In this document: positions 33,270 to 41,909 of the stretch, piece after piece
How the letters are laid out: every line of letters begins with the position of its first letter
How positions within the stretch are numbered: position 1 is the stretch's first letter
Source: Burkholderiaceae bacterium
GTDB taxonomy: Bacteria; Pseudomonadota; Gammaproteobacteria; Burkholderiales; Burkholderiaceae_E
DNA: 64,000 nucleotides
Assembly: GCA_024637155.1 (NCBI GenBank)
Contig: JAGXFR010000049.1
Coordinates: 62,001-126,000, forward strand
Direction of reading: 5' to 3'
The notes under the pieces: model-generated
What the model was told of the DNA's origin: nothing
The model's input: the letters and a program-made list of their open reading frames with translations, nothing else
The model's database searches: none
Made by a program: the position numbers and the translations under genes

Positions 33270-34721
33270 ATGGGCGCGCCGGACCTCACCGAACTCGCGG
33301 CATCCTTTCAGGGCCGGCTGCTCACCGACGCCGCCGATACCGCACCCTTTCTGGTCGACTGGCGCGGCCGCTACAGCGGTCTGGCGCTGGCCGTCGCGCA
33401 GCCCGACACCACCGAGGACGTCGCCGCCGTGGTGCGCTGGTGCGCCGCGCAGCGCGTGCCGATCGTGCCGCAAGGCGGCAACACGGGGCTGAGCGGCGGC
33501 GGAACGCCCGACGCGTCGGGGACCGCGCTGCTCCTCTCTCTCGCGCGGCTCAACCGGGTGCGCGCCGTGGACCCCGTCAACAACTCGCTGACCGTCGAGG
33601 CCGGCTGCGTGCTCGCCAATGTGCAGCAGGCGGCACGCGATGCCGGGCGGCTGTTTCCGCTCAGCCTCGGAGCGCAGGGCTCGTGCACCATCGGCGGCAA
33701 CCTCGCCACCAACGCCGGCGGCACCCAGGTGCTGCGCTACGGCAACAGCCGCGAACTGTGCCTCGGGCTGGAAGTGGTCACCGCCAGCGGCGAAATCTGG
33801 AACGGGCTGCGCGCGCTGCGCAAGGACAACACCGGCTACGACCTGCGTGACCTGTACATCGGCTCCGAAGGGACTCTCGGCGTGATCACCGCCGCCACGC
33901 TCAAGCTCTTTCCGCTGCCCGCCGCGCAGATGACCGCGTTCGCCGCGGTGTCCTCGCCCGACGATGCGCTGCGCCTGCTCGCGCTCGCGCAGCAGCAGCT
34001 CGGCGCCGCGCTCACCGCCTTCGAACTGATCAGCGACTTCTGCATCGAACTCGTCGAGCGGCACTTCCCCGAACTGCGCCGCCCGCTGGCCGGACACAGC
34101 CCCTATTACGTGCTGCTCGAATCCTCCGACTCGGACGGGGAGGCGCAGGCGACCGAGCGCTTCGAGGGGCTGCTGGGGGAGGCGCTGGCGGGAGAGGACG
34201 CCCCGGGTCGTCCGACCGCCGCGCCCTGCATCACCGACGCCGTGCTCGCCTCGTCGCTCGCGCAGGCCCGCTCGCTGTGGGCGATCCGCGAACACATCAC
34301 AATGGCGCAGATGGCCGAAGGCAAGAACATCAAGCACGACATCTCCGTGCCCATCTCGTCGATCCCCGCCTTCCTCGAGCAGGTCGACGCCGAGCTCGAG
34401 CGGCGCTTCCCCGGGGTGCGGGTCGTCAACTTCGGCCACCTCGGCGACGGCAACCTGCACTACAACGTCTCGCCGCCCGACTGGGGCACGGCGGGGCACC
34501 CGCCGACCGACCTGCAGGCCCTGCAGCCCGACATCAACCGGGTCGTCCACGATGCCGTGATCGAATTCAACGGCTCGATCTCCGCCGAGCACGGGCTCGG
34601 CCAGCTGCGCCGCGACGAGGCCGCGCGCTACAAGTCGCCGGTGGAGATGGCGCTGATGCGATCCGTGAAGCAGGCGCTCGACCCGCTGGGGATCATGAAT
34701 CCCGGGAAGGTGCTGGGGTAG
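33270..34721 (+). CDS. FAD-binding oxidoreductase, GlcD / D-2-hydroxyacid dehydrogenase type
   Basis: This 483-residue flavoprotein has a PCMH-type FAD domain (RVPIVPQGGNTGLSGGGTPD, GSCTIGGNLATNAGGT, IGSEGTLGVITAATLKL) and a C-terminal FAD-oxidase domain with HLGDGNLHYNVS and EHGLGQLRRDEAARYKSP. It ends in the usual DPLGIMNPGKVLG. Relatives oxidise D-2-hydroxyglutarate, D-lactate or glycolate; the substrate is undetermined. Its last 117 bases recur at 37184-37300 and a 36-base piece at 35584-35619, so its 3' end has been a recombination or insertion site although the gene itself is intact. Confidence 0.92.
   Translation: MGAPDLTELAASFQGRLLTDAADTAPFLVDWRGRYSGLALAVAQPDTTEDVAAVVRWCAAQRVPIVPQGGNTGLSGGGTPDASGTALLLSLARLNRVRAVDPVNNSLTVEAGCVLANVQQAARDAGRLFPLSLGAQGSCTIGGNLATNAGGTQVLRYGNSRELCLGLEVVTASGEIWNGLRALRKDNTGYDLRDLYIGSEGTLGVITAATLKLFPLPAAQMTAFAAVSSPDDALRLLALAQQQLGAALTAFELISDFCIELVERHFPELRRPLAGHSPYYVLLESSDSDGEAQATERFEGLLGEALAGEDAPGRPTAAPCITDAVLASSLAQARSLWAIREHITMAQMAEGKNIKHDISVPISSIPAFLEQVDAELERRFPGVRVVNFGHLGDGNLHYNVSPPDWGTAGHPPTDLQALQPDINRVVHDAVIEFNGSISAEHGLGQLRRDEAARYKSPVEMALMRSVKQALDPLGIMNPGKVLG
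34605..34721 (+). repeat. Direct repeat copy 1: 3' end of the GlcD-type gene
   Basis: This is the functional copy of a 117-base segment, running from CTGCGCCGCGACGAGG to the stop codon. It reappears at 37184-37300 with one visible mismatch (GGGGTAG versus GGCGTAG). Confidence 0.95.
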
Positions 34722-34782: not shown

Positions 34783-35100
34783 TTACGCGGTCGGAACCGC
34801 GGACGCGGGTAGCGGTTGGACCGCCAGCCGCAGTCCCATCGCCTTGAGGATTGCCAACAAGCTGCTGAGCGCCGGATTGCCCTTCGGCGAGAGCGTGCGA
34901 TAAAGCTGCGTCGGGTTCAGGTGTGCCTGCTCGGCCACCGCCTGTACGCCGCCGAAGGCTTGGGCCATCTGGCGCAGCACAATCAGCAGTTCGGCTTGGT
35001 CGCCGTCTTCCAGAATACCGTTAACTACTTCCAGCGCGAACGCGGGATCGTTGCGGTACAACTCGGCCATCGCATCGTCATGGGGTCTACTTCTCATCAT
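34783..35100 (-). CDS. HigA/HI1420-type antitoxin
   Basis: This 105-residue antitoxin is of the HTH addiction-module antidote family paired with HI1419/HigB-like toxins. It has the opening YRNDPAFALEVVNGILEDGD, then FGGVQAVAEQAHLNPTQLYR as helix-turn-helix and the family-typical NPALSSLLAILKAMGLRL. It should bind and neutralise the toxin and repress the operon. The start is ATG 35100 or 35097; in the ancestral layout it overlaps the toxin stop. Because the toxin has a one-base deletion, the two genes now share one continuous 214-codon frame. Confidence 0.85.
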   Translation of the reverse strand: MMRSRPHDDAMAELYRNDPAFALEVVNGILEDGDQAELLIVLRQMAQAFGGVQAVAEQAHLNPTQLYRTLSPKGNPALSSLLAILKAMGLRLAVQPLPASAVPTA

Positions 35101-35427
35101 CTGTTCTCCGTTGCCAGTCCTGCCAGTAATCCACCGCCCGAGCGATGTCCGCGTCCTGCGTGCGTTGTCGCCGCCGCACAGCAACAACACCACACGCCGG
35201 CCCGACAAGGCGTAGTACACCCGGTAGCCCGGCCCCGCATCGATGCGCAGTTCCCACACGCCCTCGCGACAGAACTTGTGATCGCCGAAGTTGCCTTGTT
35301 CGATGCGGGTCACGCGTCGAACAACTGCAACCTTGGCTTGCCTGTCGCGTAGCCGCCCCAGCCAGTCGATGTACAAGTCCCTGTGCTCACCGGGACTCAG
35401 GTAGTGCTCAATCTCGTATGTCGTCAT
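35087..35427 (-). pseudogene. HigB/RelE-type toxin (HI1419 family), frameshifted near its C-terminus
   Basis: The first 87 residues (MTTYEIEHYL to LLLCGGD) match the phage-derived Gp49/HigB-like mRNA-interferase family, including GPGYRVYYALSGRRVVLLLC. After GGD the expected family ending is found only in another frame: inserting one base near 35164/35165 restores RTQDADIARAVDYWQDWQ and a stop at 35087-35089, 113 residues in all. The actual frame reads into the antitoxin. The deletion removes the C-terminal helix and basic residues usually needed for activity, so the toxin is probably dead or attenuated, unless ribosomes shift frame here. A single sequencing error would give the same picture. 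Confidence 0.8.
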
Positions 35428-35622: not shown

Positions 35623-35790
35623 TCAACCAGGTTGTGTCACTCGGGCCTGGATACTCTCGATATTCGCGCGGTTAGTAACTCGGTGTTTGCCGTCAGCGGC
35701 CTCGAACCTCAACCCGTGAAAAATTGTCACGACTTCACTGCCCTCAGCGCAAAGCTTGAACAGTTCTATTTCAGACCGAAGGGCCCGCAC
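35623..35790 (-). CDS. Possible small gene overlapping the nucleotidyltransferase 3' end
   Basis: A frame beginning at a GTG 20 bases before the nucleotidyltransferase stop gives 55 residues: VRALRSEIELFKLCAEG, then SEVVTIFHGLRFEAADGK and HRVTNRANIESIQARVTQPG. Unlike the shadow frames around it, it has balanced amino-acid use. It ends 4 bases before repeat copy 2. It could be a real small partner gene, or the truncated or frameshifted tail of the upstream gene. No family is recognised and no ribosome-binding site is clear. Confidence 0.35.
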   Translation of the reverse strand: MRALRSEIELFKLCAEGSEVVTIFHGLRFEAADGKHRVTNRANIESIQARVTQPG

Positions 35791-36874
35791 GTTGCCGCAG
35801 AGGTCGCGCTGAATCCGATTTCCTGGAAACAAGCTTTGCCAGGAACGGGTGGACCTCCAGATCGGGATGGGCCTTGCGCAGCGCGTCGGCCCCCTGACGA
35901 AAGCGGGACAGCCAGCGCTGGCCGCGAGACCGCAGATCGCGCGCTGCTTCTTCGACGGAATCGCGACGGTATTTCCACAGGAATGCGAGTAGCGCAGCGG
36001 CCTGCGCCAGGTCTTTGGCAGACTTGCTGCGAAACGTCCCGGTGCGTTGGCTATGCACCAGGAGCTTGTGCAGCGCAAAGTGCGCAGGATCCGGGACATT
36101 GACGACCAACGCCCCCTCGGCACAGAAGATCACCGCCTGTTCCACGGCCTCCAACGAGAAATCCATGAACGCCAGTGGCTGGAGCGTGATGTGCAGTTTC
36201 GGATGCACGAACGGCCCCCGGCCGCGATGCAGGGGCGTCAGAAAGTCGAGCCGAAACTCCGGCTCGTGGGGAATCAGGTAACTGCCACCGGCCTTCCCGC
36301 CCAGGCCCGAGATGGGCAGAAATCCCATGTTGAGCGAAGAAATCGCGTCGTCGGTCCGAACCTCCAGATTGCCTGGCAAGAGCAGGGCAAGCGCCTTCCC
36401 CGCGTGGGCAAAGTCGATGTCCTGCGTACGGTCCTGGCTGCCCCAGCGCGCACCCAGCATGTTTCCGCAGGCGAGAAAGGCATGGGTTCCCACGAGCACG
36501 CCACCGGCCTGGAAGAAACCGTAATCCGCCAGGCGACGCAGCACACGGTAGTGGCGCGGCAGCACCCCTTCGCAACCGAGCGCCAGCGCGGAACGCGCGA
36601 GCGGCCCGAGCGATGCGCCAGCGCCCGGTTCGGACTTGCGCGTCATCAGCCGCTGCACCGCCTCGTTGTCGGGCCCCACGTACACCTGGCGCAGAATTCC
36701 GGATGGTTCGGTGTACTGGAAGTACCAGTACTTCCTGCCCTTCACGATCTTCGCGTTGAACGAACCGCTAAGGTCAGCCACCGACCTGAGGTGCGCCGCG
36801 CCGAGCGCCGCATCGAGAAGCTGCGCGTAGGCGGTCTGGGCGGACAGCTTCAGTTCGGTGAAAAGAGCGGCCAT
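35771..36874 (-). CDS. GSU2403-type nucleotidyltransferase-fold protein
   Basis: This 367-residue protein is of the GSU2403 family (NTP_transf_8). After an N-terminal domain with GRKYWYFQYTEPSGILRQVY, the nucleotidyltransferase core has GGVLVGTHAF at about residues 124-133 and the acidic pair in RTQDIDFAH at about 149-157. A third acidic residue is probable in the FRLDFLTPL strand. The C-terminal part is helical and basic. The activity and target are unknown; the fold suits RNA or protein nucleotidylation, as in several toxin or defence enzymes. It sits alone in an island, behind an inverted-repeat promoter. An adjacent antidote gene is not obvious. Confidence 0.82.
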   Translation of the reverse strand: MAALFTELKLSAQTAYAQLLDAALGAAHLRSVADLSGSFNAKIVKGRKYWYFQYTEPSGILRQVYVGPDNEAVQRLMTRKSEPGAGASLGPLARSALALGCEGVLPRHYRVLRRLADYGFFQAGGVLVGTHAFLACGNMLGARWGSQDRTQDIDFAHAGKALALLLPGNLEVRTDDAISSLNMGFLPISGLGGKAGGSYLIPHEPEFRLDFLTPLHRGRGPFVHPKLHITLQPLAFMDFSLEAVEQAVIFCAEGALVVNVPDPAHFALHKLLVHSQRTGTFRSKSAKDLAQAAALLAFLWKYRRDSVEEAARDLRSRGQRWLSRFRQGADALRKAHPDLEVHPFLAKLVSRKSDSARPLRQRAGPSV

Positions 36875-37132: not shown

Positions 37133-37183
37133 TTCTCGCGGCCAAGGCATGTGGCAACGAGGCAGTGGGGCTCAATTGAACAA

Positions 37184-37300
37184 CTGCGCCGCGACGAGGC
37201 CGCGCGCTACAAGTCGCCGGTGGAGATGGCGCTGATGCGATCCGTGAAGCAGGCGCTCGACCCGCTGGGGATCATGAATCCCGGGAAGGTGCTGGCGTAG
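37184..37300 (+). repeat. Direct repeat copy 3: full 117-base copy of the GlcD-type 3' end
   Basis: It is identical in length and nearly in sequence to 34605-34721, including the stop codon. It has no start and is not a gene. It marks the far end of the island, and beyond it comes the terminator of the PEP-CTERM gene, presumably the original downstream neighbour. Confidence 0.93.
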
Positions 37301-37312
37301 TCGAAACCCGGG

Positions 37313-37341
37313 CGAAAAAAACGCCCCGCAGAGCGGGGCGT
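37313..37341 (-). terminator. Rho-independent terminator of the first PEP-CTERM gene
   Basis: Stem ACGCCCCGC / GCGGGGCGT with a 3-base loop is followed on the minus strand by TTTTTTTCG. It is 27 bases past the PEP-CTERM stop. Confidence 0.88.
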
Positions 37342-37367
37342 TGGGTCGGTCGGAAGTCTGGTTTTGA

Positions 37368-37922
37368 TTATTTCTTGCTGCGCCGGCGGGCGAGGCCGAG
37401 GCCGAGGACTCCGAGTCCGAGAAGAGCGAGGGTGGCGGGGGCGGGGACTGTTCGCTGCGGATCCCCAAGAATCGCGACGTGCGAGATCGCGCCATTCCCC
37501 GTCCAGAAACCATTCAGTTGCAGCGTGTCCTTTCCGTCCCACGATCCGATATCGAAGATGTACTGGGCGGGTTGATTGTTCCCATCCTTCACCAACAGGA
37601 AGCAATACGGACAAACGATGTAGCTGCCGCCGCCCCAGGTGATCGTCGCTTCCTGGGGATCAGAGGCCGTGTTGGCAAAAGTCGTCGAGTACCAACCTGC
37701 AGCCGAACCTGAGTCCGTCGGGTCGCCGACGTTCATCTTGTAGAGTTCGCTTACCGTTCGGCCCACGATGAGTGAGACGGCGGCGGCGTCGAGATTTGCA
37801 GTGCTGGAGCTCGTCCATTGCGGCGTGGTAGCGGGCGTGATCGTAACGATAGCAGCCTGCGCTTGCGCACTCAGCAGGGCGGCCGACACAGCCATCGTCT
37901 GAAGCATCGTCAACAGTTTCAT
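37368..37922 (-). CDS. PEP-CTERM exported protein
   Basis: This 184-residue protein has a signal peptide (MLQTMAVSAALLSAQAQA), a mature domain rich in Ser, Thr and Gly, and a C-terminal sorting signal: VPAPATLALLGLGVLGLG followed by ARRRSKK. The PEP motif is a VPAP variant. Exosortase EpsH is expected to cleave it and move the protein to the exopolysaccharide matrix; no exosortase gene is in the window. The ATG follows GAAGGAAAAC as ribosome-binding site. A sigma-54 type element lies 55 bases upstream. The mature sequence (YIVCPYCFLLVKDGNNQ) is not assigned to a known family. Confidence 0.9.
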   Translation of the reverse strand: MKLLTMLQTMAVSAALLSAQAQAAIVTITPATTPQWTSSSTANLDAAAVSLIVGRTVSELYKMNVGDPTDSGSAAGWYSTTFANTASDPQEATITWGGGSYIVCPYCFLLVKDGNNQPAQYIFDIGSWDGKDTLQLNGFWTGNGAISHVAILGDPQRTVPAPATLALLGLGVLGLGLARRRSKK

Positions 37923-37976
37923 TCTTTGTTTTCCTTCGTTCTCTCGCCAGAAAATCCGGCGTCCCGGGAGATACAA

Positions 37977-37991
37977 GCAAAATTCGCGCCA
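37977..37991 (-). promoter_or_regulatory. Sigma-54 -24/-12 promoter of the first PEP-CTERM gene
   Basis: On the minus strand TGGCGC-GAATT-TTGC matches the TGGCAC-N5-TTGC consensus with the invariant GG and GC at the correct spacing and one mismatch. Transcription would start near 37965, about 43 bases before the ATG. Confidence 0.75.
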
Positions 37992-38077
37992 GAGAATACT
38001 TTTCTCTTACTTATCAATGCCCCAAGGCGCCACTAGGGGGAATTTTTCTTCCCTGTTCGAGATGGCGAGGCGAAAAC

Positions 38078-38093
38078 GTCAATTTTCCCGACA
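38078..38093. promoter_or_regulatory. Candidate enhancer site upstream of the first PEP-CTERM promoter
   Basis: GTCA-N8-GACA (TGTC-N8-TGAC on the minus strand) lies about 90 bases upstream of the -24 element, a typical position for a sigma-54 activator. The remainder of 37992-38250 holds nothing else recognised; it ends at the 3' end of the intron. Confidence 0.3.
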
Positions 38094-38250
38094 CCCCATT
38101 TTGAGGGAATCGTCCCAACCTTGGCCACCGGCACTATCTGGCCATGCGCCGGCCGAGTCGAACGGAACCTTGATTCATGCGCTGCACCGCAGCAATCCGT
38201 GGACCCTGTCGTCGGACGCGAAGGGATCGCCAACTCGACTACCCCGCGGA

Positions 38251-40095
38251 ATCGGGATAGGGGCGATCAGTCTACCTGACCGCGCCCCTCCCACACCACA
38301 CGGCATGCGGGTCCGCACCGGGCGGTTCGAGAAGTTGAGGTCATGAGAGTCGAGGCACACCGAGTTGGTCGAAGTAGGCGATGGTCAGCACCCGTTGGAT
38401 GTCGCCATGGCTGTGTCGCCACCAGCAGCGGGAATTACCCGCCACACGCTTCGCCACATGCTCGGCTGCGCCCAGGTTGATCAGTTCCCGGTAGATCGTG
38501 CGACCTCGCTTCCAGTGCTTGAGATGGATTGCCCGAAGCCGGTGCCGCAACCATTCGTCCAGCGACAGCCAGACTTTCGGTGTTTGCGCCAGCCCATAGT
38601 AGGCCTTCCATCCCCGCAGGTAAGGTTTCAGCCGCTCGATGACTTCCGCCATGCTGCGTCCGCCCAAGCGTCGGGTCAGTTGTCTCACCCGTTGCTTGAA
38701 CGTCGCCATCGGCTTCACCGCCACACCCCGCTTGACCGTCCCCCCGTAGCTCCAGAAACTGTAGCCCAAGAACTTCCTCCCCGTCACATCGGCCACCGCG
38801 CTCTTGGTCTCATTGACCTTGAGCTGTAGCTTGGCGTAACACCGCCGCAAGAGCGCCATCACCCGCTCGCCTGCCTTCCGACTGTATACATAGACGTTGC
38901 AGTCGTCGGCATAGCGTGCGAAGCAGTGGCCATGCTGCTCCAGTACCTTATCCACTTCGTCCAGCATAACGTTCGCCAGCAGCGGTGACAGTGGCCCGCC
39001 TTGCGGCGTGCCCTGATACCGTTCCAGCACCACACCATCGCTCATGATGCCGCTGTTCAGGTACGCTCGTATCAGCCGAAGGATCCCGGCGTCGTCAATG
39101 CGTTTCCGTAGACGATCGATGAGGATGTCGTGATGGACGCGATCAAAGAATTTCTCCAGATCAACATCGACCACAATCCGCCGTCCGGACTGCACGTAGC
39201 CGTGCGCGGCCAAGACCGCGTCGTGCGCACGTCTGCCCGGCCGGAAGCCGTAGCTGTGTTCGCTGAAGGTGGGGTCAAGTAGCGGTTGCAGCACTTGCAG
39301 CAGCGCTTGCTGGATCAGCCGATCCGTGACCGTCGGGATGCCAAGCTCGCGCTCGCCCCCATCCGGTTTCGGGATCGTGACCCGTCGTCCCGGACTGGGC
39401 CGGTACGTCCCCCGCAGTAGTTGGTCACGTATCTGCGGCCACGCCGTCACCAGATGACGGGCGGTCTGCTCAATGTCCAGACCATCCACGCCGCCCGCGC
39501 CTTTGTTGGCCTTGACACGTTTCCACGCTTGCCGCAGGTTCTCTCTCGTCAGTGCTGCCCCCACCAGTGTCTCGGGCAGTCCTGACCCTGTGCTCTCGGT
39601 GTCATGTCGCGGGCGGCTCGCTTCGTCGCTGACCGGATCACGCCCGGCTTCACCGTGCGCTACGCCCGCCCGCTCCGCTGTCGCGGACTTCTGACGCCTT
39701 GCTTGCTGCATCGACATGGCCTTGAACACTTCTCCTCGTTCGGCCCTTCACCCCTTACCGGCAGCTACTACGACCTCTGCTGACTTCTCGCTCCGTGTCT
39801 CCACGTCAGCCTTTCAGCCATCAGGCGAGATCTCCCTGGGTAAGAACGCACTCCTTCCCTGCACAACCGCCGGATTTACGCCGCTTCGCCTTGATCACGA
39901 GAGCTTCGCGGAATCATGCCCGCTCGCCCTGCTCGGCAACGCCTTCTATCCGGTTCTTGTCCATCGGCTCGCAGTTTCGCTCCACGCTTCCTCCCCACAC
40001 TCGGTCGCCCTCATGCAGTTGCGCTTCGCTTCGCTCGCTGTGATCAACTTACGGTGGGACTTGCACCCACAAGAGTGCGCCCGTGCCGGGCGCAC
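38251..40095 (-). mobile_element. Complete group II intron, class C type
   Basis: The 5' end at 40095 reads GTGCGCCCGGCACGGGCGCA, the conserved GUGYG start with domain I, followed by GGGTGCAAGTCCCAC. The 3' end at about 38251 is CCCCTATCCCGAT, preceded by a domain V-like hairpin (about 38290-38330, starting GAACCGCCCGG) and a domain VI stem. The 1,845-base element holds one reverse transcriptase gene. The 5' exon is the terminator of the PEP-CTERM gene at 40145-40795: hairpin, then TTTTTCATT, then the intron. Insertion just after a terminator hairpin, with an intron protein lacking an endonuclease domain, is characteristic of class C. The element appears intact. Confidence 0.88.
38341..39717 (-). 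CDS. ltrA: Group II intron reverse transcriptase/maturase
   Basis: This intron-encoded protein of 458 residues has reverse-transcriptase blocks (TIPKPDGGERELGIPTVTDR, GFRPGRRAHDAVLAA, VDLEKFFDRVHHDIL, GTPQGGPLSPLLANVMLDEV), the catalytic YADD in FARYADDCNVYV, and the maturase domain X (ERLKPYLRGWKAYYGLAQTP). It ends at GVPRLS without an HNH endonuclease, as in class C introns, which use the replication fork or hairpin targets. ATG 39717 follows GAGGAGAA; a GTG at 39729 is an alternative. No frameshift is seen, so it is probably active. Confidence 0.93.
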   Translation of the reverse strand: MSMQQARRQKSATAERAGVAHGEAGRDPVSDEASRPRHDTESTGSGLPETLVGAALTRENLRQAWKRVKANKGAGGVDGLDIEQTARHLVTAWPQIRDQLLRGTYRPSPGRRVTIPKPDGGERELGIPTVTDRLIQQALLQVLQPLLDPTFSEHSYGFRPGRRAHDAVLAAHGYVQSGRRIVVDVDLEKFFDRVHHDILIDRLRKRIDDAGILRLIRAYLNSGIMSDGVVLERYQGTPQGGPLSPLLANVMLDEVDKVLEQHGHCFARYADDCNVYVYSRKAGERVMALLRRCYAKLQLKVNETKSAVADVTGRKFLGYSFWSYGGTVKRGVAVKPMATFKQRVRQLTRRLGGRSMAEVIERLKPYLRGWKAYYGLAQTPKVWLSLDEWLRHRLRAIHLKHWKRGRTIYRELINLGAAEHVAKRVAGNSRCWWRHSHGDIQRVLTIAYFDQLGVPRLS

Positions 40096-40102
40096 AATGA
40101 AA

Positions 40103-40125
40103 AACGCCCCGCATCGCGGGGCGTT
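40103..40125 (-). terminator. Rho-independent terminator of the second PEP-CTERM gene and intron insertion target
   Basis: Stem AACGCCCCGC / GCGGGGCGTT with a 3-base loop is followed on the minus strand by TTTCATT and then the first base of the intron. The stem is almost identical to that of the other PEP-CTERM gene (37313-37341). Confidence 0.9.
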
Positions 40126-40144
40126 CGTGCAATCGACGGCGTGG

Positions 40145-40795
40145 TCAGGATTGTTGTTTGCGCCGGCGGGCGAGCGCGAAGCCGAGGGCTCCGATACCGA
40201 AGAGTGCAAGCGACATCGGTTCCGGGATCGGACCACAATTCACGGTGCAGGGGGGAACATTGGCACCGATCAAGAAGACGTTCTCGGTACCATCATTTGC
40301 ATTGTTGAAGACAAAGTGGAATTGGACCGTATCGGTCGAGAGAAACGAAGAAAAGTTTCTCAGCGTGTAGTCTGACCAACCAGTCCCGTTGGCGGTGTCT
40401 GGCACGTTGCCCGCAGAACCCGTATACGTGTCGACGACGAACCCGTTCACCAGCATTTCGAACGTTGTCAGCGTTTGGGCACTCCCCCCCTGATTGATAT
40501 CGATACCGAGCAGCATCGGGGTGCCGGCGATGCCCAGCAGCGTCGCGCCACTATATACAGGCGACAAAGCATCGTAGCCACTCACGTTCCCGCCGGTATC
40601 CAAGTTCGTTGAAAGAAAGAACCCGTTTTGTGCGGTACCGCTGGCGCAAGGTGGGTTGCTGAAGATGCACGGGCTCTGGGCTGTCTGCTGGTAGAGATTG
40701 GGCGCCGGGTCCAAAATGAGCACGTTGGCAGCAGCGGAGCCACCGAACGCAAGACCTGCCAAGCCGACCAGCACTGCTGAGAATTTTGCCTTCAT
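40145..40795 (-). CDS. PEP-CTERM exported protein
   Basis: This 216-residue protein has a signal peptide (MKAKFSAVLVGLAGLAFGGS, cleaved near AAAN), an Asn/Gly/Thr-rich beta-type mature domain (about 25-185) and the C-terminal signal IPEPMSLALFGIGALGFALA followed by RRRKQQS. The mature region carries two Cys pairs (CIFSNPPC and CTVNC). It is predicted to be an exosortase substrate delivered to the extracellular matrix. A consensus sigma-54 element lies about 60 bases upstream of the start, and the terminator at 40103 has been invaded by a group II intron. Its ligand or function is unknown. Confidence 0.92.
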   Translation of the reverse strand: MKAKFSAVLVGLAGLAFGGSAAANVLILDPAPNLYQQTAQSPCIFSNPPCASGTAQNGFFLSTNLDTGGNVSGYDALSPVYSGATLLGIAGTPMLLGIDINQGGSAQTLTTFEMLVNGFVVDTYTGSAGNVPDTANGTGWSDYTLRNFSSFLSTDTVQFHFVFNNANDGTENVFLIGANVPPCTVNCGPIPEPMSLALFGIGALGFALARRRKQQS

Positions 40796-40856
40796 GATTC
40801 TTGACTCCTTACATTCACAAACGTTGGCTGGCTATCGGCCAGACGCCAGTGATTTA

Positions 40857-40871
40857 GCAAGACGCGTGCCA
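40857..40871 (-). promoter_or_regulatory. Sigma-54 -24/-12 promoter of the second PEP-CTERM gene
   Basis: On the minus strand TGGCAC-GCGTC-TTGC is a perfect match to the sigma-54 consensus with correct spacing. Transcription would start near 40845, some 50 bases before the ATG at 40795. Confidence 0.85.
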
Positions 40872-40924
40872 GAAAAGAAGATTCCTTTTCCGAAAAGGAC
40901 TTGTGCTACTGCCCCGGTTATCGC

Positions 40925-40941
40925 TTGACGAATACTGTCAA
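40925..40941. promoter_or_regulatory. Candidate activator site upstream of the second PEP-CTERM promoter
   Basis: The inverted repeat TTGAC-N7-GTCAA lies about 55-70 bases upstream of the -24 element. Position and symmetry suit a sigma-54 enhancer-binding protein. The rest of 40796-41147 shows no gene. Confidence 0.35.
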
Positions 40942-41107
40942 GAATTTCGACGGGCGTCGCGGCGCGTACGCGTGCCCGGGATCGTCAGAGCCTTTAGCCA
41001 GTGCGGGGACGAATGACTCGCCCTGCGACGGACAGGCACCCGACCGTTGAGCGCAGACTGGCCGATGGACGCTCCTGGTCCTAAGCGCCCAGTCAGCCGA
41101 GGGTGTA

Positions 41108-41140
41108 AGAAACGGCGACACACCCAATGGGGTGACGCCG
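41108..41140 (-). terminator. Candidate terminator of the liv operon
   Basis: On the minus strand CGGCG-T-CACCC pairs with GGGTG-TGT-CGCCG around a short CATT loop, then GTTTCTT follows. It is 8 bases past the livF stop. The T-tract is weak. Confidence 0.45.
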
Positions 41141-41147
41141 CACCCCC

Positions 41148-41909
41148 CTACAACCCCAAATAAGCCTCCCGCACCCGCGGATCCGCGAGCAGTTCCTGCC
41201 CGCTGCCTTCCAACGCCACGCGCCCGTTCTCCAGCACATAGGCCCGGTTGGCGAGCTTGAGCGAGGCGGCGACGTTCTGCTCGACGAGCAGGATGGTCAT
41301 CCCCTCGTCGTGCAGGGTGCGGATGGTGCGCAGCACGTCGGCGACGACTGCGGGGGCGAGCCCGAGCGAGGGCTCGTCGAACATGATCAGGCGCGGCGCG
41401 CCCATCAGGCAGCGGCCGATGGCGAGCATCTGCTGCTCGCCGCCCGAGAGGGTGCCGGCGAGCTGGTTGCTGCGCTCGCCAAGCCGGGGGAACATCGCGA
41501 GCACCTTGGCCATCGTCCGGGCGGCGCCGGCGCGCGCACGCGGGAGCATCGCGCCCATTTCGAGATTCTCGTGCACGGTGAGCGTGGGGAAGATCTGCCG
41601 GCCCTCGGCCACCTGGCCGATGCCCAGGTTGCAGGTGCGATGGCTCTCAAAGCCGGCGATCTCGGTGCCGTCGAAGGCGACCGAGCCGCTGCGCGCGGGC
41701 ACGATCCCGGCGATCGCGCTGATCAGCGAGGTCTTCCCGGCACCGTTGGCCCCGATGATCGCGACGATCTCGCCCTCGCCCACCTCGAGCGACACGCTCT
41801 CGAGCGCCTGCGCATCCCCGTAGCAGACGCACAGGTCGCGCACGACGAGCAGCCGGCGGTACGACCCGTCGGGCGCGCGCGTCGCTGCCAGGGAAGTGTC
41901 GGAATTCAT
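41148..41909 (-). CDS. livF: Branched-chain-type ABC importer ATPase LivF
   Basis: This 253-residue ABC ATPase of the LivF subfamily powers import through LivH/LivM. Walker A is GANGAGKTSLISAIAG, the signature is LSGGEQQMLAIGRCLM and Walker B is LIMFDEPSLGLAP; the switch region reads MTILLVEQNVAASL. It is the last gene of livK-H-M-G-F and starts one base into the livG stop (TGATG). With an acyl-CoA ligase upstream, the substrate may be a carboxylic or aromatic acid rather than an amino acid. Confidence 0.93.
   Translation of the reverse strand: MNSDTSLAATRAPDGSYRRLLVVRDLCVCYGDAQALESVSLEVGEGEIVAIIGANGAGKTSLISAIAGIVPARSGSVAFDGTEIAGFESHRTCNLGIGQVAEGRQIFPTLTVHENLEMGAMLPRARAGAARTMAKVLAMFPRLGERSNQLAGTLSGGEQQMLAIGRCLMGAPRLIMFDEPSLGLAPAVVADVLRTIRTLHDEGMTILLVEQNVAASLKLANRAYVLENGRVALEGSGQELLADPRVREAYLGL

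Follow-up and report, generated by a model that had tools for sequence, protein, structure and literature searches.

Two PEP-CTERM genes of a Burkholderiaceae bacterium carry predicted sigma-54 promoters and PrsR-type activator sites set at helix-turn spacings

The sequence under study, hereafter the window, is a 64 kb stretch (JAGXFR010000049.1, positions 62,001-126,000) of the 3.2 Mb assembly GCA_024637155.1 of a Burkholderiaceae bacterium, and the whole assembly was scanned by means of sequence patterns and protein families. A TIGR02595 search detected seven PEP-CTERM genes in this genome, two of which lie in the window, both on the minus strand. Gene 1 (37368..37922) encodes a protein of 184 aa with a signal peptide-like start and a C-terminal tail, VPAPATLALLGLGVLGLGLARRRSKK, in which VPAP replaces PEP; gene 2 (40145..40795) encodes 216 aa and ends in the tail PIPEPMSLALFGIGALGFALARRRKQQS. 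Both proteins scored above the curated thresholds of TIGR02595 (16 bits) and PF07589 (20.7 bits), i.e., 23.2 and 26.1 bits for gene 1, and 27.9 and 25.2 bits for gene 2, respectively. Gene 1 starts with the ATG at 37922 and gene 2 with that at 40795. We placed the start of gene 1 at ATG 37922 because a ribosome-binding site precedes it and the signal peptide-like sequence begins there; an upstream TTG at 37976 was rejected, as it would coincide with the -12 element described below. Elsewhere in the genome, two PEP-CTERM genes (L003 and L004) stand at opposite ends of contig C39. Their activator regions (GGGTGAGTCG..TTACATG) and N-termini (RIRTLL.K.A) are much alike, with bodies that differ, and on account of the similar activator regions and N-termini they look like a paralogous pair.

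Gene 2 is followed by an intrinsic terminator (40126-40102, minus strand) with an 11-pair stem of -20.8 kcal/mol, and gene 1 by an intrinsic terminator-like hairpin (37320..37342, minus strand). A group II intron that looks complete (about 38240-40095, minus strand) appears to start directly after the gene 2 terminator and ends short of the upstream activator site (UAS) of gene 1. It includes an intact reverse transcriptase/maturase gene between the two PEP-CTERM genes (38341..39729, minus strand; TIGR04416, 400 bits), as well as group II intron RNA domains (40014-39743, minus strand; RF01998 and RF02001 of Rfam). A typed consensus for domain V had no match in the window, and the 3' end of the intron is therefore approximate. 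Insertion directly behind a terminator hairpin is typical of class C group II introns, and the position of this intron after the gene 2 terminator resembles a class C-like insertion. Because the intron sits between the gene 2 terminator and the UAS of gene 1, both promoters are intact. On the other side of gene 1, the window contains a 120-nt direct repeat (34602-34721 and 37181-37300; 98% identical, 2579 apart), which is the 3' end of a FAD-linked oxidase-like gene (33270-34721) duplicated just beyond gene 1. Between the repeat copies lie a HigB/HigA-like fused ORF (34783-35427, minus strand) and a nucleotidyltransferase ORF (35771-36874, PF12281), an arrangement that looks as if an inserted block had duplicated its edge.

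Upstream of the two genes we located the -24/-12 elements TGGCGC-N5-TTGC (gene 1; 37991-37977, minus strand; TGGCGCGAATTTTGC) and TGGCAC-N5-TTGC (gene 2; 40871-40857, minus strand; TGGCACGCGTCTTGC), the latter with the full consensus TGGCACG-N4-TTGC. A sequence-only reading that preceded this analysis had placed both strings exactly, and its estimate of 55-60 bases to the start codons was close, though not exact: we measured 54 nt for gene 1 and 61 nt for gene 2, counted from where the -12 element ends. Both elements have GG at -24 and GC at -12 at the correct spacing (TGGCAYR-N4-TTGCW-like), and when all sites in the window were ranked by a simple -24/-12 score, these two took ranks 1 and 2 (scores of 14.3 of 14.3 and 13.5). 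The corresponding transcription starts are predicted at ~37965 (gene 1) and ~40845 (gene 2).

One explanation of these strings is that they arose by chance in GC-rich DNA and that ordinary sigma-70 promoters drive the genes. The window itself leaves room for this, since 0.56 matches to TGGCRC-N5-TTGC are expected in it and at least two were reached in 10 of 100 shuffles; the string alone is therefore weak evidence and not significant. Genome-wide, we counted 37 exact strings versus 19 for a reversed control pattern, and roughly half of the 37 are thus expected by chance. However, five of the 37 lie just upstream of detected PEP-CTERM genes, where 0.006 would be expected (Poisson p ~7e-14), and the remaining two PEP-CTERM genes have near-match elements in the equivalent position (TGGCATCGATCTTGC and TGGCATGAATCGTGC). 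The presence of -24/-12 elements before all seven detected PEP-CTERM genes is not chance. In addition, a simple consensus scan of 37200-41200 found no sigma-70-like promoter, and the elements are matched by a UAS at phased spacing, as described below. We give virtually no credence to the chance explanation.

The other half of the switch, the UAS, was absent from the sequence-only reading and was found in this analysis: GTCG-N8-KAC occurs upstream of all seven -24/-12 elements of the genome. The predicted PrsR sites of the window genes are GTCGGGAAAATTGAC for gene 1 (38092-38078, minus strand), which is of the Haft motif 1 type, and GTCGAAATTCTTGAC for gene 2 (40951-40937, minus strand), with gaps to the -24 element of about 85-86 nt and about 64-65 nt, respectively. 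Three of the seven sites, including both in the window, have GAC instead of TAC in the 3' half, a variant that completes the inverted repeat GTC-N9-GAC. In its text, Haft et al. 2006 (PMC1569441) describes a motif 1 of 17 nt that ends in TTTACA and is followed by a sigma-54 motif after 62.8 ± 10.6 nt, and proposes that PrsR binds motif 1. GTCG-N8-KAC fits this predicted activator site, and the arrangement given there (motif 1 upstream of motif 2, spacer of 32-92 nt) is found here as well, motif 1 being judged by that text and the TTTACA end.

In a leave-two-out test, the UAS pattern derived solely from the five other genes fitted gene 2 without a mismatch, while at gene 1 it had one. When a single mismatch was tolerated, two window matches were reached in 15 of 100 shuffles, and the evidence for the UAS therefore rests on position. 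The strict UAS, a gap of 40-95 and the sigma-54 pattern together gave exactly seven matches in 3.2 Mb, all before the seven PEP-CTERM genes; as the strict UAS pattern was derived from these same genes, their match is partly circular, whereas the specificity and the leave-two-out test are not. A reversed bipartite control pattern had one match in 399 genomes, and false matches are therefore few. The genome search for the same element before other PEP-CTERM genes, which the earlier reading had put forward, thus returned a -24/-12 element (five of them exact) plus a UAS at all seven.

The trans-acting genes are also present. The genes prsR and prsK lie in tandem on contig C46 (26850-28172 and 28296-30338, both minus strand); PrsR is the one protein above its cut-off (710 bits; cut-off 503), and PrsK scored 715 bits (cut-off 300). 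The genome encodes one RpoN and a single exosortase (one PF09721 protein, 242 bits). Hence, the proposal that the two window genes form a co-regulated pair is upheld in that they share RpoN/PrsR-type elements and the regulators are present, but the set comprises seven genes rather than two. That sigma-54 and PrsK-PrsR control is already known for such genes, as had been claimed, is backed by Haft et al. 2006 and by Xia et al. 2023 (PMC9850573), although the former is a prediction and the latter an experiment in another species.

The sigma-54 promoters could be real and yet respond to another NtrC-type response regulator than PrsR. Sigma-54 response regulators other than PrsR exist in the genome, which encodes three further long PrsR-like response regulators (300-330 bits), and two relatives (G051 and G059) have a credible element and no PrsR hit. 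However, only a single protein exceeds the PrsR cut-off (710 versus 503 bits), and UAS and PrsR co-occur, both in Haft et al. 2006 and among the 74 genomes of the family, in which 17 of the 19 with a credible element encode PrsR as compared with 18 of the 55 others (Fisher p 3e-5). Furthermore, PEP-CTERM transcription in Zoogloea resiniphila is reported to depend on RpoN and PrsK-PrsR (PMC9012009, which summarises work on prsK and prsR mutants). Control by a regulator other than PrsR is accordingly very unlikely in our judgment. In three genomes of the same genus (G005, G006, and G007), PrsR is encoded and no strict UAS plus sigma-54 element was found at gaps of 40-70; they may have a reduced regulon or a drifted site, and draft assemblies together with the strict pattern may explain these exceptions as well as G051 and G059.

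The total element lengths at the seven genes (i.e., 94, 95, 95, 95, 96, 106, and 116 nt) hinted at helix-turn steps, and we therefore applied the pattern, with two gap ranges, to 399 genomes of the order, and also to the family. Among the matches listed, this yielded 283 distinct elements from 108 genomes; the shorter length classes are thinned among these matches, which cannot create a period. Lengths of the 283 elements cluster at 83, 94, 105, and 116, with almost nothing between, and 251 of them (89%) fall within 2 nt of such a rung, windows that make up 37% of the lengths scanned. The best period was 11.1 bp (Rayleigh R 0.72). The two window genes also fall on the ladder; gene 1, with a length of 116, is two rungs from gene 2.

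As promoters are shared among related genomes, the ladder might reflect shared promoter ancestry rather than helical phasing. Against this, it holds when each family and length is counted once (R 0.64, n = 162, p ~1e-29, among the matches listed), a value reached by none of 2000 simulated null sets; the spacer sequences vary widely; and the genome under study on its own shows 94-96, 106, and 116. We regard the ancestry explanation as very improbable. A strict helical-phase rule is, in our assessment, likely: the PrsR site would be placed only at discrete helix-turn steps (gaps of ~53, 64, 75, and 86), and IHF-like sites would occupy fixed positions to match, which would make spacing an inherent variable of the regulon. 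A ladder of this kind is as expected if the activator must face the polymerase.

From the genome under study and its relatives, we read out 134 elements in full; 96 of them lie ahead of an ORF whose tail is PEP-CTERM-like. Some elements in relatives (L056, L059, L060, L075, L163, L165, and L167) look like chance matches that no PEP-CTERM ORF follows; most of them are off the ladder. Others in relatives (L150, L151, L120, L129, and L135) are on the ladder and precede ORFs without a PEP-CTERM tail. These ORFs have recurring C-termini (e.g., ...WDQY..LYCGYDAHG and ...EP.AG..W...DIV.YLKTT) and are candidates for PrsR regulon members outside the PEP-CTERM proteins.

We searched the spacers for the IHF-like consensus WATCAANNNNTTR (9 scored positions) and observed a match of at least 8/9 in 76 of the 134, as compared with a mean of 17.5 and a largest value of 26 in dinucleotide shuffles. 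The IHF-like sites lie mostly 18-20 nt before the -24 element and in one orientation; other positions are 6-8, 16-19, and 29-30 nt before it, again about one turn apart. Gene 1 has a degenerate IHF-like site (38012..38024, plus strand; TATCAATGCCCCA) that matches at 7/9 and is weak on its own, at the commonest position in relatives, i.e., 20 nt before the -24 element. The spacer of gene 2 has no recognisable match to WATCAANNNNTTR. A palindrome, CCTTTTCGGAAAAGG (40885-40899), lies within this spacer, at the place where relatives often carry an IHF-like site; none of the other six PEP-CTERM genes has a counterpart upstream.

The two window genes are on the same strand with gene 2 upstream, and a group II intron can splice itself from a joint transcript. 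Gene 1 might on these grounds be read from the gene 2 promoter through the intron, its own promoter being a relic. Such co-transcription is opposed by the strong terminator after gene 2 and by the full bipartite element that gene 1 possesses on the ladder (length 116), and we consider it exceedingly unlikely. As far as sequence can tell, the two genes are separate transcription units, linked by regulation rather than by an operon. The view that they lie outside one operon, already expressed in the sequence-only reading, is thus borne out by the gene 2 terminator, the intron between the genes, and the promoter of gene 1.

We observed directly the sites and their one-to-one correspondence with the seven genes, as well as the full set of trans-acting genes, the ladder of spacings, and the enrichment of IHF-like sites. 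We are highly confident in a reading in which each gene forms a transcription unit of its own, with a sigma-54 promoter that depends on an enhancer and is governed from PrsK through PrsR by looping at phased spacing, the seven genes acting together and their products undergoing exosortase processing. In this model, the sensor kinase PrsK would phosphorylate PrsR, the presumed trigger, and a PrsR oligomer would bind GTCG-N8-KAC, ~65-86 nt ahead of the -24 element. The spacer DNA would then bend, assisted by IHF in many promoters, and the PrsR ATPase would remodel the RNA polymerase-sigma-54 waiting at -24/-12. A short, stiff spacer would fix PrsR to one helix face relative to the polymerase, leading to spacing only in ~11 bp steps. 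The window genes would be activated jointly with the other five detected PEP-CTERM genes; export and processing by the one exosortase would probably bring their products into the extracellular matrix. For this organism, we infer both the RpoN/PrsR dependence and the surface location.

A switch composed of an RpoN promoter and an activator site has been known since 2006, and the window and its genome are another instance of this type. As in the regulon described in the text of Haft et al. 2006 (PMC1569441), single PEP-CTERM genes are preceded by motif 1, ~63 nt, a -24/-12 motif, and ~71 nt to the start codon, in the company of tandem prsK-prsR and an exosortase. Unlike in that regulon, in which 99 of 167 genes have the element, all seven genes detected here do, and three of the seven UAS, including those of both window genes, have GAC rather than TAC. 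Likewise, pepA of Aquincola tertiaricarbonis (Xia et al. 2023; PMC9850573) is a PEP-CTERM gene with TGGCAC / CTGCTT as its -24/-12, a terminator after it, and an enhancer-like sequence upstream; its start site was mapped and its rpoN1 dependence shown, whereas here the start and rpoN dependence are predicted from sequence. The window proteins also differ from PepA, as they scored 28.4 and 27 bits with the flocculation protein PepA family NF033554, far under the equivalog cut-off of 80. The order of UAS, IHF-like site, and -24/-12 is the textbook sigma-54 layout (review PMC7057263), and the helix face, probably important here, also matters in CbrB, between subsites of the UAS (PMC6296734). In contrast to classical sigma-54 promoters, the UAS is close (gap of about 53-86 nt), and hundreds of natural promoters show a plainly quantised UAS-promoter spacing.

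The ladder and the IHF enrichment may be the new part. The text of Haft et al. 2006 (PMC1569441) contains no mention of IHF or integration host factor and no discussion of helical phasing, giving only the mean and spread of the spacer, and we found no statement on helical spacing for PEP-CTERM genes in the open-access literature; subscription journals were outside this search, and novelty is thus not certain. With regard to the biology, the seven-gene regulon implies that otherwise dissimilar exported proteins appear tied to one signal. The ladder provides a nearly noise-free rule to find members of the PEP-CTERM regulon in draft genomes, and it makes testable why natural sigma-54 activator sites sit whole helix turns away and whether the rung sets promoter strength.
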